In this document: one piece after another, positions 42,179 to 48,969 of the stretch | Layout of the letters: every line of letters begins with the position of its first letter | Position numbering within the stretch: position 1 is the stretch's first letter | Assembly (NCBI RefSeq): GCF_001187505.1 | Contig: NZ_CP012150.1 | Coordinates: forward strand, 6,048,048-6,112,047 | Direction of reading: 5' to 3' | Source: Mycolicibacterium goodii | Lineage (GTDB): Bacteria; Actinomycetota; Actinomycetes; Mycobacteriales; Mycobacteriaceae | Length of the DNA: 64,000 nucleotides | The notes under the pieces: model-generated | Databases searched by the model: none | What the model saw: only the letters and a program-made list of their open reading frames with translations | Told to the model about the DNA's origin: nothing | Position numbers and translations under genes: made by a program

Positions 42179-45100
42179 TCACAGCAGGCCGAGCTTCTGC
42201 AGATCGGTGACGTACTTGACGATGATCGGCGCGGACACCTGCGGAATATCCGGATTGCCCCCGTCCGCACCGATTTTCGCCTGGCGCACCGCTGCCCGGA
42301 ACCGATCCGTGGGTGCCTGCGACCCACGGATCGGCTTCCCGGGGTGCTGATAGTTGTGCAGCAGCGGCAGCAGCGATGCCTGCCGTTGCGCGTCGGGCAG
42401 TGCGTGCAGCGCCGTGTCGAAGCGCTGCAGCCATGCCGCGTAGTCCGGTATGCGCTCGATCGGGTATCCGGCCTCGTCGAGCCAGTCGACGAATTCGTCG
42501 AGACCGATACCGTCGTCGTGCGGGTTCATCACGTGATAGGTGGAGAACCCGTCCGCACCGGCGCCCAGGGTCGCGATCGCCTCGGCGATGAACCCGACCG
42601 GCAGGCCGTCGTAGTGCGCGCGCTGCCGGTTACCGTGCGCGTCGAGTTCGTAGAACGATCCTGGCGCGATGCCGGTGGCCACCAGGCTCAGCATCAGCCG
42701 GGTGAACATGTCCGGAACATTCAGCTGGCCCGCATATCTCGTGTCGGCCAGGATCATGTCGCAGCGGAACACCGCGACCGGCAGCCCGCACCGGTCGTGG
42801 GCCTCGCGCAGCAGCACCTCGCCGGCCCACTTGCTGTTGCCGTACCCGTTGGCGTAGCTGTCGTCGATGGCACGCACGGCGCTGACGGTCCGGATGTCGG
42901 CGTCCTCGGTGAACAGCGACGGTTCGATCTGGTCCCCGACGCCGATGGTCGACACGTAGGTGTAGGGCTTCAGTTTCGTCGTCAGCGCGAGCCGGATCAG
43001 TTCGGCCGTGCCGACGACGTTGGGGCCGAACAACTCCCGGTACGGCAGCACATGGTTGACCAGCGCCGCGGGGTCGACGATCACGTCGACCGTGTCGGCG
43101 AGTCGCTGCCAGGTGAGGGGATCCAGCCCGAGGTCCGCCTCGCCCTTGTCCCCCGCCATCACCCGCAGATGACGGTCGGCGAGGTCCAGGTAGCGGTGCA
43201 GCAGTTCGGGATCACCGCTGTCGAACGTCCGGTCCAGCCGGCGGCGCGCCGACGCGTCGTCCTTGGCCCGCACCAGGCAGATCACGGTGCCACCGACCCG
43301 GCTCATCCGCTCGAGCCACTCCAAGGCCAGGTAGCGGCCGAGGAACCCGGTCGCCCCGGTCAGCAGCACGGTCCGCACCTGGGCGCTCGGCGCTGACCGC
43401 GGTGCGGACAGCGTCTCGGCGTCGATGAACTTCTCCAGGGTCAGGTCGGCGGCGCGCACTTCGGTCGCGTCCCGGCCGTGCACCGACGCGAACGACGGCC
43501 TGGCCAGACCCGGGCTACGTTGGGACTCGACGTAATCGGCGATGGCCCGCAGGTCGCTGGCCGGGCTGACGATCACACCCACCGATACCTCGACACCGAA
43601 GATCTCGTGCAGCAGGTTGCCGAACGTCAGCGCCGACAGCGAATCTCCACCGAGGTCGGTGAAGTGCGCGTCGGGTGCCAGGGCGTCGGCCGCCGCCCCG
43701 AGCAGCGCACCGGCCGCGCGGCCGACGGTTTCCAACACCGGACGATTCGCCCCGTCGCGGCGCAGGGCCGCCAACTCGTTGGCCTGGTTGTCGGCCAGTT
43801 CGGTGTAGAGGGCTTCGAGCCGTTCGGCGTAGTGCGCCTTCAGTTTCGGCCGGGCCAGTTTGCGGATACCGGTGAGCAACCCGTTCTCGAGTGTGAACGG
43901 CGTTGTCTCGATGAGGAAATCACGCGGGATCTCGTAGGACTGCAACCCCGAGGACCTGGCGATGTCCTGAAACGACGCGGTGATCGCGTTCTTCAGCGCA
44001 TCGAGGCTGCCGCCGCTTTGCCGCAGCGCGTCCTCGGTGGGGACGACGACGGCCAGCAGGTAGGCGCGTGCGCTGTTGCCGTAGATGTAGATCTGGCGCA
44101 CCAGCGGGCTGTCGCCGAACAACGGCTCCAGTTTCGACACGGTGACGAACTCGCCCTGGGACAGCTTCAGCACGTTGTTGCGCCGATCGAGATAGACCAG
44201 CTGATCCGGACCGATCTCGGCCACCACATCCCCCGTGCGGTAGAAGCCGTCGGGGTCGAACACGTCGGCGGTGACCTCCGGACGTTTGTAGTACCCGGGA
44301 AACAGATCTCGGGTCTTGACGAGCAACTCGCCCCGCGCATGCGGCTGGTCGGTACGGAAGTACCCGAGATCGGGCACGTCGGCCAGCTTGTAGTCGATCA
44401 CCGCAGGGCGCCGTACCGTGCCGTCGACGAACACCATGCCCGCCTCGGTCGACCCGTAGCCCTCGATGAGATGAAGATCCAACAGTTGTTCGACGAACGC
44501 CTTGTTCTCGGCCGAGATCGGTGCCGAGCCTGTCATCGCCAGGATGTACCGACCGCCGAGCAGATGCTGGGCCAGATCGGCCATCACGTCGGCTTCGAGG
44601 TTTTCGTGCATGCCTTCCTCGGCGGCTCGCCGCCGCACCTCGCTCTGGAAGGTTCCGAAGAGCATGTCCCAAACCCGCGGCACGAAGTTCAGCTCGGTGG
44701 GCCGGACGAGCGCGAGATCCTCATACAGTGTCGAAAGATCGCTGCGCGCGGTGAAATACGCGGTGCCGCCATGTCCCAGCGTGCCGTACAGGATGCCGCG
44801 GCCCATCACGTGGCTCATGGGCATGAAGTTCAGGGTGATCGATGGTTGCGCGGCCGTGCCGCTCCAGTTCCAGCGCGACCGGCGCCAGAAGTTGGCCACC
44901 AGGCGCTCGGGGTACATCGCGCCTTTCGGGGCGCCGGTGCTGCCCGATGTGTAGATGAGCAGACGCAACGGATCATCCTCGTCGGCAACGTGATACGCGA
45001 CGTCCGGCGCCGATCGCCCGCGCTCGATCAGATCGGCCAGCGGCTCGACCACCACCTGGACACCCGCATCGCCGAGCCGCTGACGTGCACGCTGCAGCGT

Positions 45101-45697
45101 CTCGCGTTCCTCGTCCACCGCCGGGTGGTGGTCGAAGACGACCAGGCGGGCGGGCGTGTGGCCGGCGAGCACCAGTTCCACGGCGGTGTCGAGGTCACCG
45201 ATGCTCGACGCGAAGAGCCGCGGCTCGGTTTCGGCGACGATCGGTTGCAGCTGGCCGACCGGCGCGCTGGTCTGCAGCGGGACGGCCACCGCGCCGAGGT
45301 GCATCGTCGCCATGTCGATGACGGCGTAATCGGCACTGGCAAAGCCCAATACGCATACGCGGTCACCTGGGCGCACATCGTCGCACAGGGCGCGCGCAAG
45401 AGCGGCGACACGATCGGACAGCTCGCGGTAGGTGATGGTGTCGAACCGCGGCAGCAGTTCGGCGGAGGTTCGTCCTGTTACGGGATCCTCGACGATTTCG
45501 ACTGCACGCTCGGCGATTGCGGGCCGATCGGCGTATGCCTCCATGACGGCGCCGACGACCTGGTGCAGCCGCATATCCGGGCGCTCGATGGCCTCGGTCA
45601 CCGCGTCGTCGGGTCGGGCCCCGGCGAATTGAGCGTCGGTGGCGTACAGCTGCGCGATCCGGCGGGCGAGTCGTTCCTGGCGTGGGTTGGTGGGCAT
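42179..45697 (-). CDS. car: Carboxylic acid reductase
   Basis: 1,172 residues. Reduces carboxylic acids to aldehydes with ATP and NADPH. Adenylation domain about 40-640 ([20 protein letters not shown] near 250-269, [22 protein letters not shown]), phosphopantetheine carrier about 650-730 with Ser686 in [11 protein letters not shown], and thioester-reductase domain about 760-1170 ([17 protein letters not shown]; catalytic Tyr952 and Lys956 in YGNSK). The length equals known mycobacterial enzymes. ATG 45697 is used; an open frame to 45850 lacks homology. It needs a phosphopantetheinyl transferase encoded elsewhere. The substrate is probably aromatic or fatty acids. Confidence 0.95.
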
Positions 45698-45957
45698 GGC
45701 TTGACGGGTCCTTCCGTGCGCCGAGATAGCTGAACTGGCGTGTATGCCAACAGTTCCACGGTAGGACGGATCGATGCGACCGCCATGGGCCGTCTCCTCG
45801 GACGGCTCACCGCTACGCCTTCGAGCAGGGCGTTTACCGCTGCCCCTCATCGAAAAATGGGTGCTGGCGGTAACTTCGGCTCATCCGGGGCGACGTTGTC
45901 TGGCAAGTCGCTGATGATGTTGCTGGACAACAGCTGTGCGCGCCGGCCGGATCACCG

Positions 45958-46113
45958 GTGATCCGAATGGGAATGCGCATCGCGCTTGTGGCGACAGACC
46001 AGCCCCGCCGCCGCCACGGCCACCGGGTCGAACCCCTCCGGTACGGGACCGTCGGCCACCAGAGCCTTCACCAGCGCCTCCTGGCGGCGCGCCAATTCAT
46101 CGTGGTCGGTCAT
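45958..46113 (-). CDS. Small protein coupled to the MNIO gene
   Basis: 53 residues, absent from most gene predictions because of its size. It begins TDHDELARRQEALVKALVAD, then GPVPEGFDPVAVAAAGLVCR and ends HKRDAHSHSDHR. The ALVADG.P.P.GFDP pattern resembles the N-terminus of longer partner proteins seen beside DUF692 genes in other actinobacteria, here stopping early. One Cys and five His could bind metal. Its ATG overlaps the MNIO stop as ATGA, strong evidence that it is translated. Confidence 0.75.
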
Positions 46114-46973
46114 GTCCACACCTCGCGTGCCTGGTTGGTGATCGGCGCGGCCCCGGCGGCCTCGGCGATCGCGTCCAGTTCGTCGAACAACTCGGCGGCC
46201 GGCGGGAAGTGGCCGTCGCGTTCGAGCATGATGGGTGTGTCGACCCGCTGCCGCAGTGCGGCCACGAGTCCGAGCACCTGCGGTGGGGTGCGCGCGGTGT
46301 GGGTGTCGTGATAGAAATCCTCACCCTCTCGCCCACCGGCGACATGGCTGTACGCCACCCGCTCCACGGGAAGTCTGGCCAGTTCCCGCAACGGATCACG
46401 GCCGCGGTTGCGCGCATTGGCATACACATTGGCCACGTCGAGCACCAGCAGCACCCCGGTGCGATCGACCAGCTCGGTGAGGAATTCCGATTCGGTGAGG
46501 TCGGATTCGGGCCACTCCACGAACGAGGCGATGTTCTCCACCGCCAACGGGACATTCAGGTGCCCGCGGGTGCGGTGGATGTTGTCCGCCAACACCTCGA
46601 TGGCCTCGCGCGTCCGCGGCACCGGCAACAGATGGCCGGCCTCGATCCCGCCCGCCCGGACGAAGGCGATGTGCTCACTGACCAACGGAGAACGCAGCGC
46701 CTGTGCACACGCCGCCAGCCGTTGTATCCGCTCGGGCTGCACCGGTTCCACACCGCCGAGGGACAGAGCGACACCGTGCGGGATCACCGGCACATCGCGT
46801 CCGACGAGGTCGAGCAGCGCCGGCTCCGGACGGGCCCGGCGACGACGGATCGGGATGGATTCGGCGATCACCTCACAGAATCCCGGCGTGAGATCCGCGA
46901 TCACCCCGGCGATCTCGCGTCGCCAGCCGATTCCGATGTCACCGAGTGCGGGCACGGTTCTCATCCGCCGCAC
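46110..46973 (-). CDS. MNIO-family (DUF692) iron oxidative enzyme
   Basis: 287 residues, TIM-barrel multinuclear non-heme iron enzyme (MbnB/TglH/ChrH/BufB superfamily), whose known members use Fe and O2 to remodel cysteines in ribosomal peptides. The ligand pattern is intact: IPHGVALSLGG, SEHIAFVR, VENIASFVEW, VLDVANVYANARN, YSHVAGGREG, HDTHT and MLERDGHFP. The start overlaps the upstream membrane-protein gene by 13 bp and the stop overlaps the downstream small gene, so the three are one unit. The likely substrate is the Gly/Cys tail of the upstream protein. Confidence 0.9.
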   Translation of the reverse strand: MRRMRTVPALGDIGIGWRREIAGVIADLTPGFCEVIAESIPIRRRRARPEPALLDLVGRDVPVIPHGVALSLGGVEPVQPERIQRLAACAQALRSPLVSEHIAFVRAGGIEAGHLLPVPRTREAIEVLADNIHRTRGHLNVPLAVENIASFVEWPESDLTESEFLTELVDRTGVLLVLDVANVYANARNRGRDPLRELARLPVERVAYSHVAGGREGEDFYHDTHTARTPPQVLGLVAALRQRVDTPIMLERDGHFPPAAELFDELDAIAEAAGAAPITNQAREVWT

Positions 46974-47878
46974 CCTCCTCCGCCTCCGCCGCAGCCACCG
47001 CAGCTGCCGCAGCCGCCGCCTCCGCCCCCGTCGCCACCGCAGCCGCCGCCACCGTCGGCGCCGCCACCGGCGACCCCCGGGGCCTGCACCGCATCGGCAT
47101 AACCGGCGTCGACCGCCCGCAACGCCCCGGCACCGAACAGGGCGGCCGACAGCGCGACCGCGGCCGGGCCGTAGGTTTCGAACGCCGGACGCTTCGCCGG
47201 ATCCAGGTAGGCCAGGCGCTTTCGTTCCCGGGCCAGCAACCGGCGCCCGGCAGGAGTCAGCCGGCGCACCTGCAGCAGCCAGGGAAGCAGGAACGTCGCG
47301 TACATGACCGTGGGGAACAGGATGAGCGTGAACGTGGCCGCCACGTGCGGGTCAGCGGTGAGGCGGGTCAGCAGGTAAACACCGTAACCCAGCCCGATCA
47401 CCACCAACACCACCGAGGGCAGCACACCGAGGCGGATCCGCCTGCGCTGTTCGCGGGTCGTCACCAGCCCGCGCTCGCCGAGCTCCTCCGCCATGGCCGC
47501 GAGATCGTCGCGGGACGTCCGGCACAGACGTGGGACGGTGTGCTCCGCGTCCGCGGTCACGCGGCGCAGCGTTCGCGCGGTGAAACCGTCGATCTGCGCG
47601 CCCCGCACCGCATGATCGACCCTCCGGGTGGAGGTGACCCGCCCGGTGGCGCGCAGGCTCGCCAGCGCGGTGACCACCGGGGCGAACTCCGACCGCAGGA
47701 AGGCCAGCTCTGTCGGGCTGACCGGCCCGGTTTCGACGCGTTGTCGTGGTGTCGCGGCGATCCGCCAGATCACCGCGAACACCACCGACAGGGCCAACGC
47801 CGCCAGGTAGCCGACTCCTCCCGCGGTCACCGCCAGGCCGTGCCACACCAAGACCTTCTCGCTCGCAGCCATCGTCAC
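46961..47878 (-). CDS. TIGR04222-like membrane protein with Gly/Cys-rich C-terminal tail
   Basis: 305 residues. Hydrophobic segments at about 14-38, 152-172, 182-203 and 243-260 make it a membrane protein; residues 45-140 form a TIGR04222-like cytoplasmic domain (VSPTELAFLRSEFAPVVTAL). The last 35 residues are almost only Gly with five Cys (pattern GGGGCGGD, then GGCGSCGGCGG, then GGGCGG). Such a tail beside a DUF692 enzyme looks like a precursor-peptide region fused to a membrane carrier. ATG 47878 starts the three-gene operon. Confidence 0.85.
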   Translation of the reverse strand: MTMAASEKVLVWHGLAVTAGGVGYLAALALSVVFAVIWRIAATPRQRVETGPVSPTELAFLRSEFAPVVTALASLRATGRVTSTRRVDHAVRGAQIDGFTARTLRRVTADAEHTVPRLCRTSRDDLAAMAEELGERGLVTTREQRRRIRLGVLPSVVLVVIGLGYGVYLLTRLTADPHVAATFTLILFPTVMYATFLLPWLLQVRRLTPAGRRLLARERKRLAYLDPAKRPAFETYGPAAVALSAALFGAGALRAVDAGYADAVQAPGVAGGGADGGGGCGGDGGGGGGCGSCGGCGGGGGGCGG

Positions 47879-48021
47879 CTCCCCTTCAGATGTCCCAGCG
47901 TCGCGGACCGCCGTTGTTACCGATCACAACTTTCCGGTCGAGCCAGAGTGCGTCGGCAAATACAGCGTTCTGTGAGAGAGCTTTGGCTTTTGTGTGAGGA
48001 AGCTGTCCGGGCGGCCTGTCG

Positions 48022-48969
48022 TCACACGCTGACCGGGAACCACCTGTCGAGGTTGGTCTTCAAGAACTCCGACACGGTGATGGGTTCGCGGCCGATGAGC
48101 GCACGCAGCACCGCACGGTCGGACCCCATGGTGCGTCCCGCCCGCGCGACCATGTCGCCGACCGAGGAAATATGCTGCGCCATCGCGGGGTTGACCACGT
48201 CTTCGCCCTCAACCTGTGACAGCTCGACCAGATCCTGCCGCCACTGCTCCCGGGTGGCAGGCTCGTAGCGGACAGGCCGTTCGGCCAACTGGGACAGCAG
48301 CGACGCGATCTCGACGTGGCTGAGCTCCTCGGCGCCTTTGACATCGACGACCTGCCCGGAAAACCGTTCGGGGTGCAGCAATCCCGCGAGCGCCAGTTCC
48401 GCGGCGTCGCGACCGCTGATCCACCCGACGCGTTCGGGCCCGAACGAGTTACGGATGAGTCCCTGCTCGCGAATCGAGCGGCTGTGCAGAATTTTCAGGT
48501 TCTCGTGGAACAACGCAAACACCCGCAGGATCAGCAGATCCAGTCCCGCCCAGTCCAGGATCTCCTCGGCAAGCCATTGGGCCCGCCCGAGGCTGCTCGG
48601 GCTCTCGGGGTGCGACGGCCCCATCGACATCACCACCGTCCGTGGGTAGCGGCCGACTTCCCGTACGGCCGCGGCGTAGTTCGCCGCCGCCGGAATCACG
48701 CCCGCATCGATGGGATAGGTGAAGTACGCCAGGTCGACATCGGCGAGCGCCGGTACCAGGGTGCGCCGGTCGTGCAGGTCGCCTCGTACGATCTCGGCGC
48801 CCAACGCCGCGAGCCGTTCGGTGCGCTCGCCGGGGGTGCGTGCAAGCACCCGAACCGCCCGGCCCTCCTCCCGCAGGCGCCGCACGAGGTATTCACCGGT
48901 GTTGCCGTGGCGTCCGGTCGCACCGGTGACAAGAATCGGGTTGGTCCCTGAATTGTCGTTTGCCGTCAT
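48022..48969 (-). CDS. NmrA-like NAD(P)-binding protein (atypical SDR)
   Basis: 315 residues. The N-terminal PILVTGATGRHGNTGEYLV is an NmrA/HSCARG-type Rossmann motif, followed by VRVLARTPGERTERL and GDLHDRRTLVPAL. The catalytic Tyr-x3-Lys of classical SDRs is not evident, so it may act as a redox sensor or a quinone/nitroreductase-like enzyme. A GAGAGGAAAACC ribosome site precedes ATG 48969. It follows the MDR reductase by 19 bp and is probably co-transcribed. Confidence 0.85.
   Translation of the reverse strand: MTANDNSGTNPILVTGATGRHGNTGEYLVRRLREEGRAVRVLARTPGERTERLAALGAEIVRGDLHDRRTLVPALADVDLAYFTYPIDAGVIPAAANYAAAVREVGRYPRTVVMSMGPSHPESPSSLGRAQWLAEEILDWAGLDLLILRVFALFHENLKILHSRSIREQGLIRNSFGPERVGWISGRDAAELALAGLLHPERFSGQVVDVKGAEELSHVEIASLLSQLAERPVRYEPATREQWRQDLVELSQVEGEDVVNPAMAQHISSVGDMVARAGRTMGSDRAVLRALIGREPITVSEFLKTNLDRWFPVSV

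Follow-up and report, generated by a model that had tools for sequence, protein, structure and literature searches.

Locus organization

A membrane protein of the TIGR04222 family, an MNIO (DUF692) enzyme, and a very small third protein are encoded by overlapping genes in the window, by which we mean the whole 64-kb stretch of DNA that was analyzed. The features of the locus are as follows.

47878-46961, minus strand: TIGR04222 membrane protein, 305 aa, GTG start
46973-46110, minus strand: MNIO (DUF692/PF05114) enzyme, 287 aa, GTG start
46113-45952, minus strand: third gene, 53 aa from ATG, or 55 aa from an upstream GTG at 46119
46964..47074, minus strand: C-terminal Gly/Cys tail of the TIGR04222 protein, the putative MNIO target; about 37 residues, 26 Gly, 5 Cys, CGG end
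47918..47934, minus strand: upstream element near GAAAGTTGTGAYCGGTA, a putative promoter or operator from the alignment of 17 regions

The start of the MNIO gene overlaps the end of the TIGR04222 gene by 13 nt, and the start of the third gene overlaps the MNIO stop codon (46112-46110) by 4 nt as ATGA. The initial annotation had described three coupled genes joined by start and stop overlaps, the last of them encoding 53 residues, and the coordinates agree on both points. Its span of 45958..47878 was right at the upper end and 6 nt short at the lower. Likewise, its tail of "about 35 Gly with five Cys" had the number of cysteines right and the number of glycines too high. Both a TIGR04222 match and an MNIO match are found once in the whole genome (7.1 Mb), at this locus. 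The downstream neighbor (window 42179-45850, minus strand) presumably encodes a carboxylic acid reductase, judging by eye, and a search of 45700-48400 against Rfam gave no match at an E value of 0.1.

The MNIO had been annotated as complete, and that description stands: the protein matches PF05114 with an E value of 4.1e-77, and alignment with TglH (PDB 8hci) indicates that 9/9 of the iron ligands reported for TglHI (PMC10880893) are kept, as H66, H101, E146, D179, N182, H210, D223, H225, and E251. With this predicted iron site, the enzyme looks intact. The best NCBIfam match is MNIO_BufB at 184 bits, where the equivalog cutoff is 310, and the enzyme scores under the curated NCBIfam cutoffs of BufB, HvfB, ApyH, ChrH, and MbnB. 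Thus, the MNIO is placed in none of these named subtypes. The closest MNIOs in a scan of genome contigs, at 80-86% identity, come from records of Mycolicibacterium or Mycobacterium.

The TIGR04222 protein and its tail

The membrane protein scores 115 bits against the TIGR04222 profile of NCBIfam, where the cutoff is 43. Residues 130-217 also bear a weak similarity (E value, 0.027) to the C-terminal domain of DUF2207 proteins (PF20990), but the score of 14.6 is under the gathering score of 33. DUF2207 C-terminal domain membrane proteins can carry Gly-rich tails. Searches of PDB profiles with TIGR04222, as with the family of the third gene, returned nothing credible. An AlphaFold2 model built from 32 sequences (mean pLDDT, 86) predicts three helices (residues 19-42, 153-172, and 179-202), followed by a kinked helical stretch toward the C terminus (238-263) and, at 270-305, a tail that is disordered (pLDDT below 50).

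On which side of the membrane the tail would lie depends on the C-terminal stretch. We read the loop before that stretch as cytosolic by its charge pattern, and a tail beyond a membrane-spanning stretch would then lie outside. Antoine et al. likewise predict such tails to be outside the membrane (PMC12452194, seen in part). The stretch at 238-263, however, is only weakly hydrophobic, with a Kyte-Doolittle value of 1.5, as opposed to 1.8-2.2 for the other helices of the window protein, and we therefore place the tail only tentatively on the outer face, as the more likely side.

The tail is not a chance product of base composition. When 40-residue stretches were taken from all six frames of the window (G+C, 68.4%), 10 of 76,366 had at least 4 Cys and at least 20 Gly, and all 10 overlapped in the frame of the tail, making it the sole such stretch in the window. 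Moreover, a Cys-bearing tail recurs in relatives. One MNIO scan of genome contigs, a scan that finds close relatives, gave 77 loci, each of which (77/77) had a TIGR04222-like frame near the MNIO gene (E value, 0.01). In the TIGR04222 copy nearest the MNIO, the last 40 residues hold 2-7 Cys in 76/77 loci and end in Cys-Gly-Gly in 73/77, with tail length and Cys number differing between species. All four codons for Gly and both for Cys are in use at the conserved CGG end, and this synonymous variation adds to the argument against chance. The order TIGR04222-MNIO-partner, the partner being the product of the third gene, is kept in the 77 loci with few exceptions.

The tail could instead be a low-complexity by-product of slippage in GC-rich repeats, with Cys incidental. 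The G+C content, the repetitive GGC and TGC codons, and the variation in length and Cys number are all what slippage would give. Slippage would not, however, be expected to keep one CGG end through synonymous codon changes, or to leave the Gly-rich tails Cys-poor at 11/12 places in genomes without an MNIO match. We consider this explanation very improbable.

Two loci depart from the common pattern. In Mycolicibacterium houstonense (L028, 4296-5618), the TIGR04222 core runs into the MNIO from about residue 83, and both the tail and the N terminus of the MNIO are missing. The G760 copy (L222:3175-4545) is this same fusion, which is either a natural deletion or an assembly collapse. In a 4.0-Mb genome (G711; L219:2844-4395, minus strand), an internal deletion has disrupted TIGR04222, and the MNIO and partner frames are open.

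Tail cysteines and the presence of MNIO

Tail cysteines track MNIO across the class. In a sample of 344 genomes, TIGR04222 was matched in 124 and MNIO in 86, these absences being soft for TIGR04222, as the searches scored 8 or 12 first-look candidates per genome. We compared 117 of the 118 listed TIGR04222 places with an own score of at least 43 bits (one at 43.0 bits was left out, as were six that pass the cutoff only when summed with neighbors); for 2 of the 117, the fetched sequence ends within the tail. At least 2 Cys were present in the last 40 residues at 50/71 places with MNIO within 7 kb and at 11/46 without it (Fisher P = 1.4e-6), and counted by genome, at 57/94 with MNIO and 4/23 without (P = 3e-4). 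The difference was larger among the 71 Gly-rich tails, defined by at least 30% Gly in the last 30 residues: at least 2 Cys fell within those 30 residues in 50/59 from genomes with MNIO and in 1/12 from genomes without (P = 7e-7). All of these Fisher-type P values ignore relatedness. Among the Cys-poor Gly-rich tails of MNIO-less genomes, 5/11 end in Gly-Gly-Asp; thus, Gly tails occur without Cys. In MNIO-linked proteins of the class sample, 215 of 255 tail Cys are followed by Gly.

Relatedness weakens the link between tail and MNIO. On a tree of 134 domains, independent pairs separated by supported branches agreed in 2-3 of 5 cases, with hardly any opposite and a median P of 0.25; when MNIO was scored per genome, there were 3 pairs, of which 0.4 went in the same direction and 0.1 in the other. 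The pairs on supported branches point the same way and are too few for significance, and the per-genome version is uninformative.

The genus sample of 228 genomes yielded 21 TIGR04222 proteins above the cutoff. Of these, 18 come from genomes in which the MNIO is full length, and all 18 hold 5-7 Cys in the tail; the 2 from genomes without an MNIO match have neither tail Cys nor a Gly-rich tail, and the remaining 1 is the L028 fusion (G760). The genus control is nonetheless weaker than it appears because the two MNIO-less copies are distant paralogues of 25-26% identity.

The MNIO might instead have a different substrate. The TIGR04222 protein would then play an accessory role, as an anchor, exporter, or sensor, and its Cys tail would bind metal or form disulfides without being modified. 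MNIO-linked TIGR04222 places with fewer than 2 tail Cys number 21/71, many of them short-tailed copies in genomes of one group (g23, probably Streptomyces), so that MNIO there lies near a copy without a Cys tail; some of these copies adjoin a Cys-tailed copy, and for others no such copy was seen. Conversely, no MNIO match lies within 7 kb of 11 proteins that do have a Cys tail, and over a quarter of TIGR04222 proteins are without C-proximal Cys according to Antoine et al. (PMC12452194, seen in part). The tail Cys, however, track MNIO in both the class and the genus samples. In six reference loci (L001, L048, L030, L015, L049, and L060; frames of at least 90 aa), the three genes and their shadow frames reach most genera, no other frame of that size is conserved across genera, and the other flanking genes are common mainly to Antrihabitans and Nocardia. 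A scan of four g23 loci that have no Cys tail (L111, L113, L118, and L121) for other Cys/Gly-rich frames flagged two, both in shadow positions and neither convincing. A substrate other than the tail seems to us unlikely, if with a real chance of being right, and we prefer the tail as the candidate substrate.

A second MNIO subfamily occurs in seven genomes of the genus, where an MNIO different from that of the window (E values, 4e-60 to 4e-63) is found with a partner and with no TIGR04222 match. A small transmembrane protein follows that pair and has 5 tail Cys in 1/7 genomes and 0-1 in 6/7. The version with five is an 87-residue protein (L223:3485-3748, minus strand) that has one hydrophobic segment, at the N terminus, and ends in a Ser/Gly tail; its genome is among those without a TIGR04222 match, and the six related genomes have the shorter versions. 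This small protein is evidence neither for nor against the substrate idea at the window locus.

The third gene encodes a minimal partner

By profile comparison, the third gene is a shortened PF26136/SCO6045-like protein. The short form matches the family profile over 51 columns with a probability of 99.6 and an E value of 1.2e-23, and PF26136 (in some sources the SCO6045-like C-terminal domain) is the label of 120 homologues listed of 1,699. Searches of the family with Pfam (a set without PF26136) and NCBIfam gave no credible match. Longer homologues, in Nocardia, Gordonia, Rhodococcus-like genera, and Pseudonocardia, have mostly 100-160 residues, and the Nocardia form is predicted to fold as four helices (pLDDT, 91). 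The forms of Mycolicibacterium and Tsukamurella retain about the first 45 residues followed by a short basic end, and the protein of the window is without that end.

The company of MNIO is constant. A profile search found the partner domain in 54/54 class loci with linked TIGR04222 and MNIO in the stretch, fused to the C terminus of the MNIO in 27 and as a separate neighboring frame in 27, counts that come from profiles, as a motif-based count missed true fusions. Among the loci from genome contigs, the partner is separate in 76/77, and none was found in 1/77. Even the short form is fused to MNIO in four loci of the genus (L196, L200, L205, and L207). Because the PF26136-type protein is both fused to MNIO and constantly beside it, we take it to be the partner of the enzyme. 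No PF26136-type match was found by profile search at two loci with different MNIOs, L186 and L218.

How so short a protein might serve as a partner is suggested by TglI, which loses binding to TglH when its first helix is removed (PMC10880893, seen in part). A partner of which only the first helices remain would be in line with that result. The match of the PF26136 family to DUF2063 by hhalign is weak, however (probability, 5-8%; E value, 0.004-0.009), and DUF2063 itself has no match in the M. goodii genome.

Other neighbors of MNIO were seen along the way. In two g23 genomes, the MNIO-partner fusion adjoins a 262-residue protein with a hydrophobic N-terminal segment, presumably of the DUF4142 type (L111:2074-2862 and L116:612-1400). 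In genome G615, which has no TIGR04222 match, the MNIO is of another type, is extended at length at its C terminus, and adjoins a gene that we take by eye to encode an asparagine synthetase (L218:2655-4265). Elsewhere in the phylum, where DUF2063 was above the cutoff in 1/246 genomes, a frame for a Cys-rich protein of 174 residues lies with an MNIO and a DUF2063 protein in a bufferin-like order (L186:28-2370).

A candidate tail-maturation cassette

How the three proteins might work together can be sketched as a self-contained cassette for protein maturation. We propose that the MNIO and its small PF26136-type partner would oxidize cysteines in the disordered Gly-rich tail of the TIGR04222 protein, with the membrane protein as carrier. 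No RRE-type domain was recognized in the operon, and for that reason the membrane protein may also be a recognition part. Once modified, the Cys-Gly tail would remain attached to the membrane through its carrier, with the outer face as the more likely location, and copper or another soft metal might bind there. By analogy with bufferins, a role in buffering metal at the membrane is a reasonable conjecture, and the thiazole or thiooxazole groups and the metal sink raised in the initial annotation would be speculative outcomes of such a modification. We put the probability of the cassette as a whole, including the tethered tail and the possible metal binding, at roughly 0.6. That MNIOs mature integral membrane proteins in this way, making a tethered Cys-Gly metallophore that needs no RRE, with recognition through the membrane protein's cytosolic domain and a partner cut down to about 45 conserved residues, seems to us an even bet.

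Alternatively, the tail may be modified and the product released, or used in signaling, rather than kept at the membrane to buffer metal. MNIO products are usually released peptides, and after the last helix both the window protein and that of L190 read ADA, a sequence resembling an Ala-X-Ala site. Many close relatives, however, read STS or SSS at the ADA position, and release by signal peptidase was rejected as a candidate on that account. Moreover, no protease-type fourth gene of at least 90 aa is conserved across genera in the six reference loci. Release or signaling appears rather improbable, and we favor a tail that remains tethered.

As judged from sequence, the window locus is one of the TIGR04222-MNIO clusters in which a C-proximal Cys-rich Gly tail is linked to MNIO. 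Antoine et al. (2025; PMC12452194, seen in part) describe TIGR04222 genes, which come mostly from Actinomycetota, as frequently linked with MNIO genes. In their account, the C-terminal regions of the encoded proteins are rich in Ser and Gly, contain Cys, and probably lie outside the membrane, and some subsets of these proteins are likely to be modified by MNIOs that work with PME-type 2 partners. As in the clusters of that paper, the locus here has a Gly/Ser/Cys C terminus in a gene placed before MNIO, as is often the case there, and no DUF2063. PME-type 2 is given there for at least 10% of TIGR04222 clusters, whereas the partner domain was constant in our class loci. The partner here is cut to 53 aa, and a fusion of MNIO and partner was not found described in the parts of the paper considered. 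The core idea, that the tail is an MNIO substrate, is therefore already in print. The initial annotation had also reached it and had named lack of the tail in relatives as a refuting outcome; on examination the tail proved to be conserved there, with Cys that track MNIO, and a substrate carried on a membrane protein is well supported, if still putative. What the present work adds to the parts considered is the correlation of the tail with MNIO, the constant and often fused partner, its minimal form, the CGG end, and the upstream motif. No experimental test of the tail as an MNIO substrate was found in the literature consulted.

The operon resembles other MNIO systems in part. Like the bufferin systems (BufA/BufB/BufC), it has an MNIO of the same superfamily, with MNIO_BufB as its best match. 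Unlike them, it has an enzyme under the BufB cutoff, a genome without a DUF2063 match, and a candidate substrate that is a multihelix membrane protein in the AlphaFold2 model. The TglH-TglI complex of 3-thiaglutamate synthesis acts on the C-terminal Cys of a peptide (PMC10880893, seen in part), and it shares with our operon the full set of iron ligands and an MNIO that works with a helical partner. TglI, however, contains an RRE domain and is much larger than the partner of our operon. A TIGR04222 peptide has been placed in a predicted bacteriocin cluster (PMC5183585), and the literature match for SCO6045/PF26136 and two neighboring tags was a table row in a redox-response study (PMC4991794), both sources being seen in part.

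If the tail is modified, membrane proteins of many Actinomycetota would join peptides as targets of MNIO chemistry, and so small an arrangement, an MNIO and a helper of 53 residues, would offer a simple system in which to study substrate recognition without an RRE. TIGR04222 and PF26136, for neither of which did we find a function described in the literature searched, would then gain one as well.

An upstream motif

Upstream of the operon, 17 mycobacterial regions share GAAAGTTGTGACCGGTA with few substitutions, about 40-50 nt before the start, and the window version reads GATCGG. The M. goodii genome has one perfect site, that of this operon, and 14 further sites at 3 mismatches as opposed to 9 for a reversed-pattern control. 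A regulon is not supported by that excess, and a small one is possible. In six further genomes of the genus, sites with at most 2 mismatches numbered 12 as opposed to 1 for the control. Six of the 12 lie before TIGR04222, such that the motif is found 5' of that gene in 6/6 genomes. The other six (L253, L254, L255, L256, L257, and L258, in three genomes) lie before unrelated or no clear frames. The motif is probably this operon's own promoter or operator, a putative element that travels with the TIGR04222 gene in each of the six genomes.
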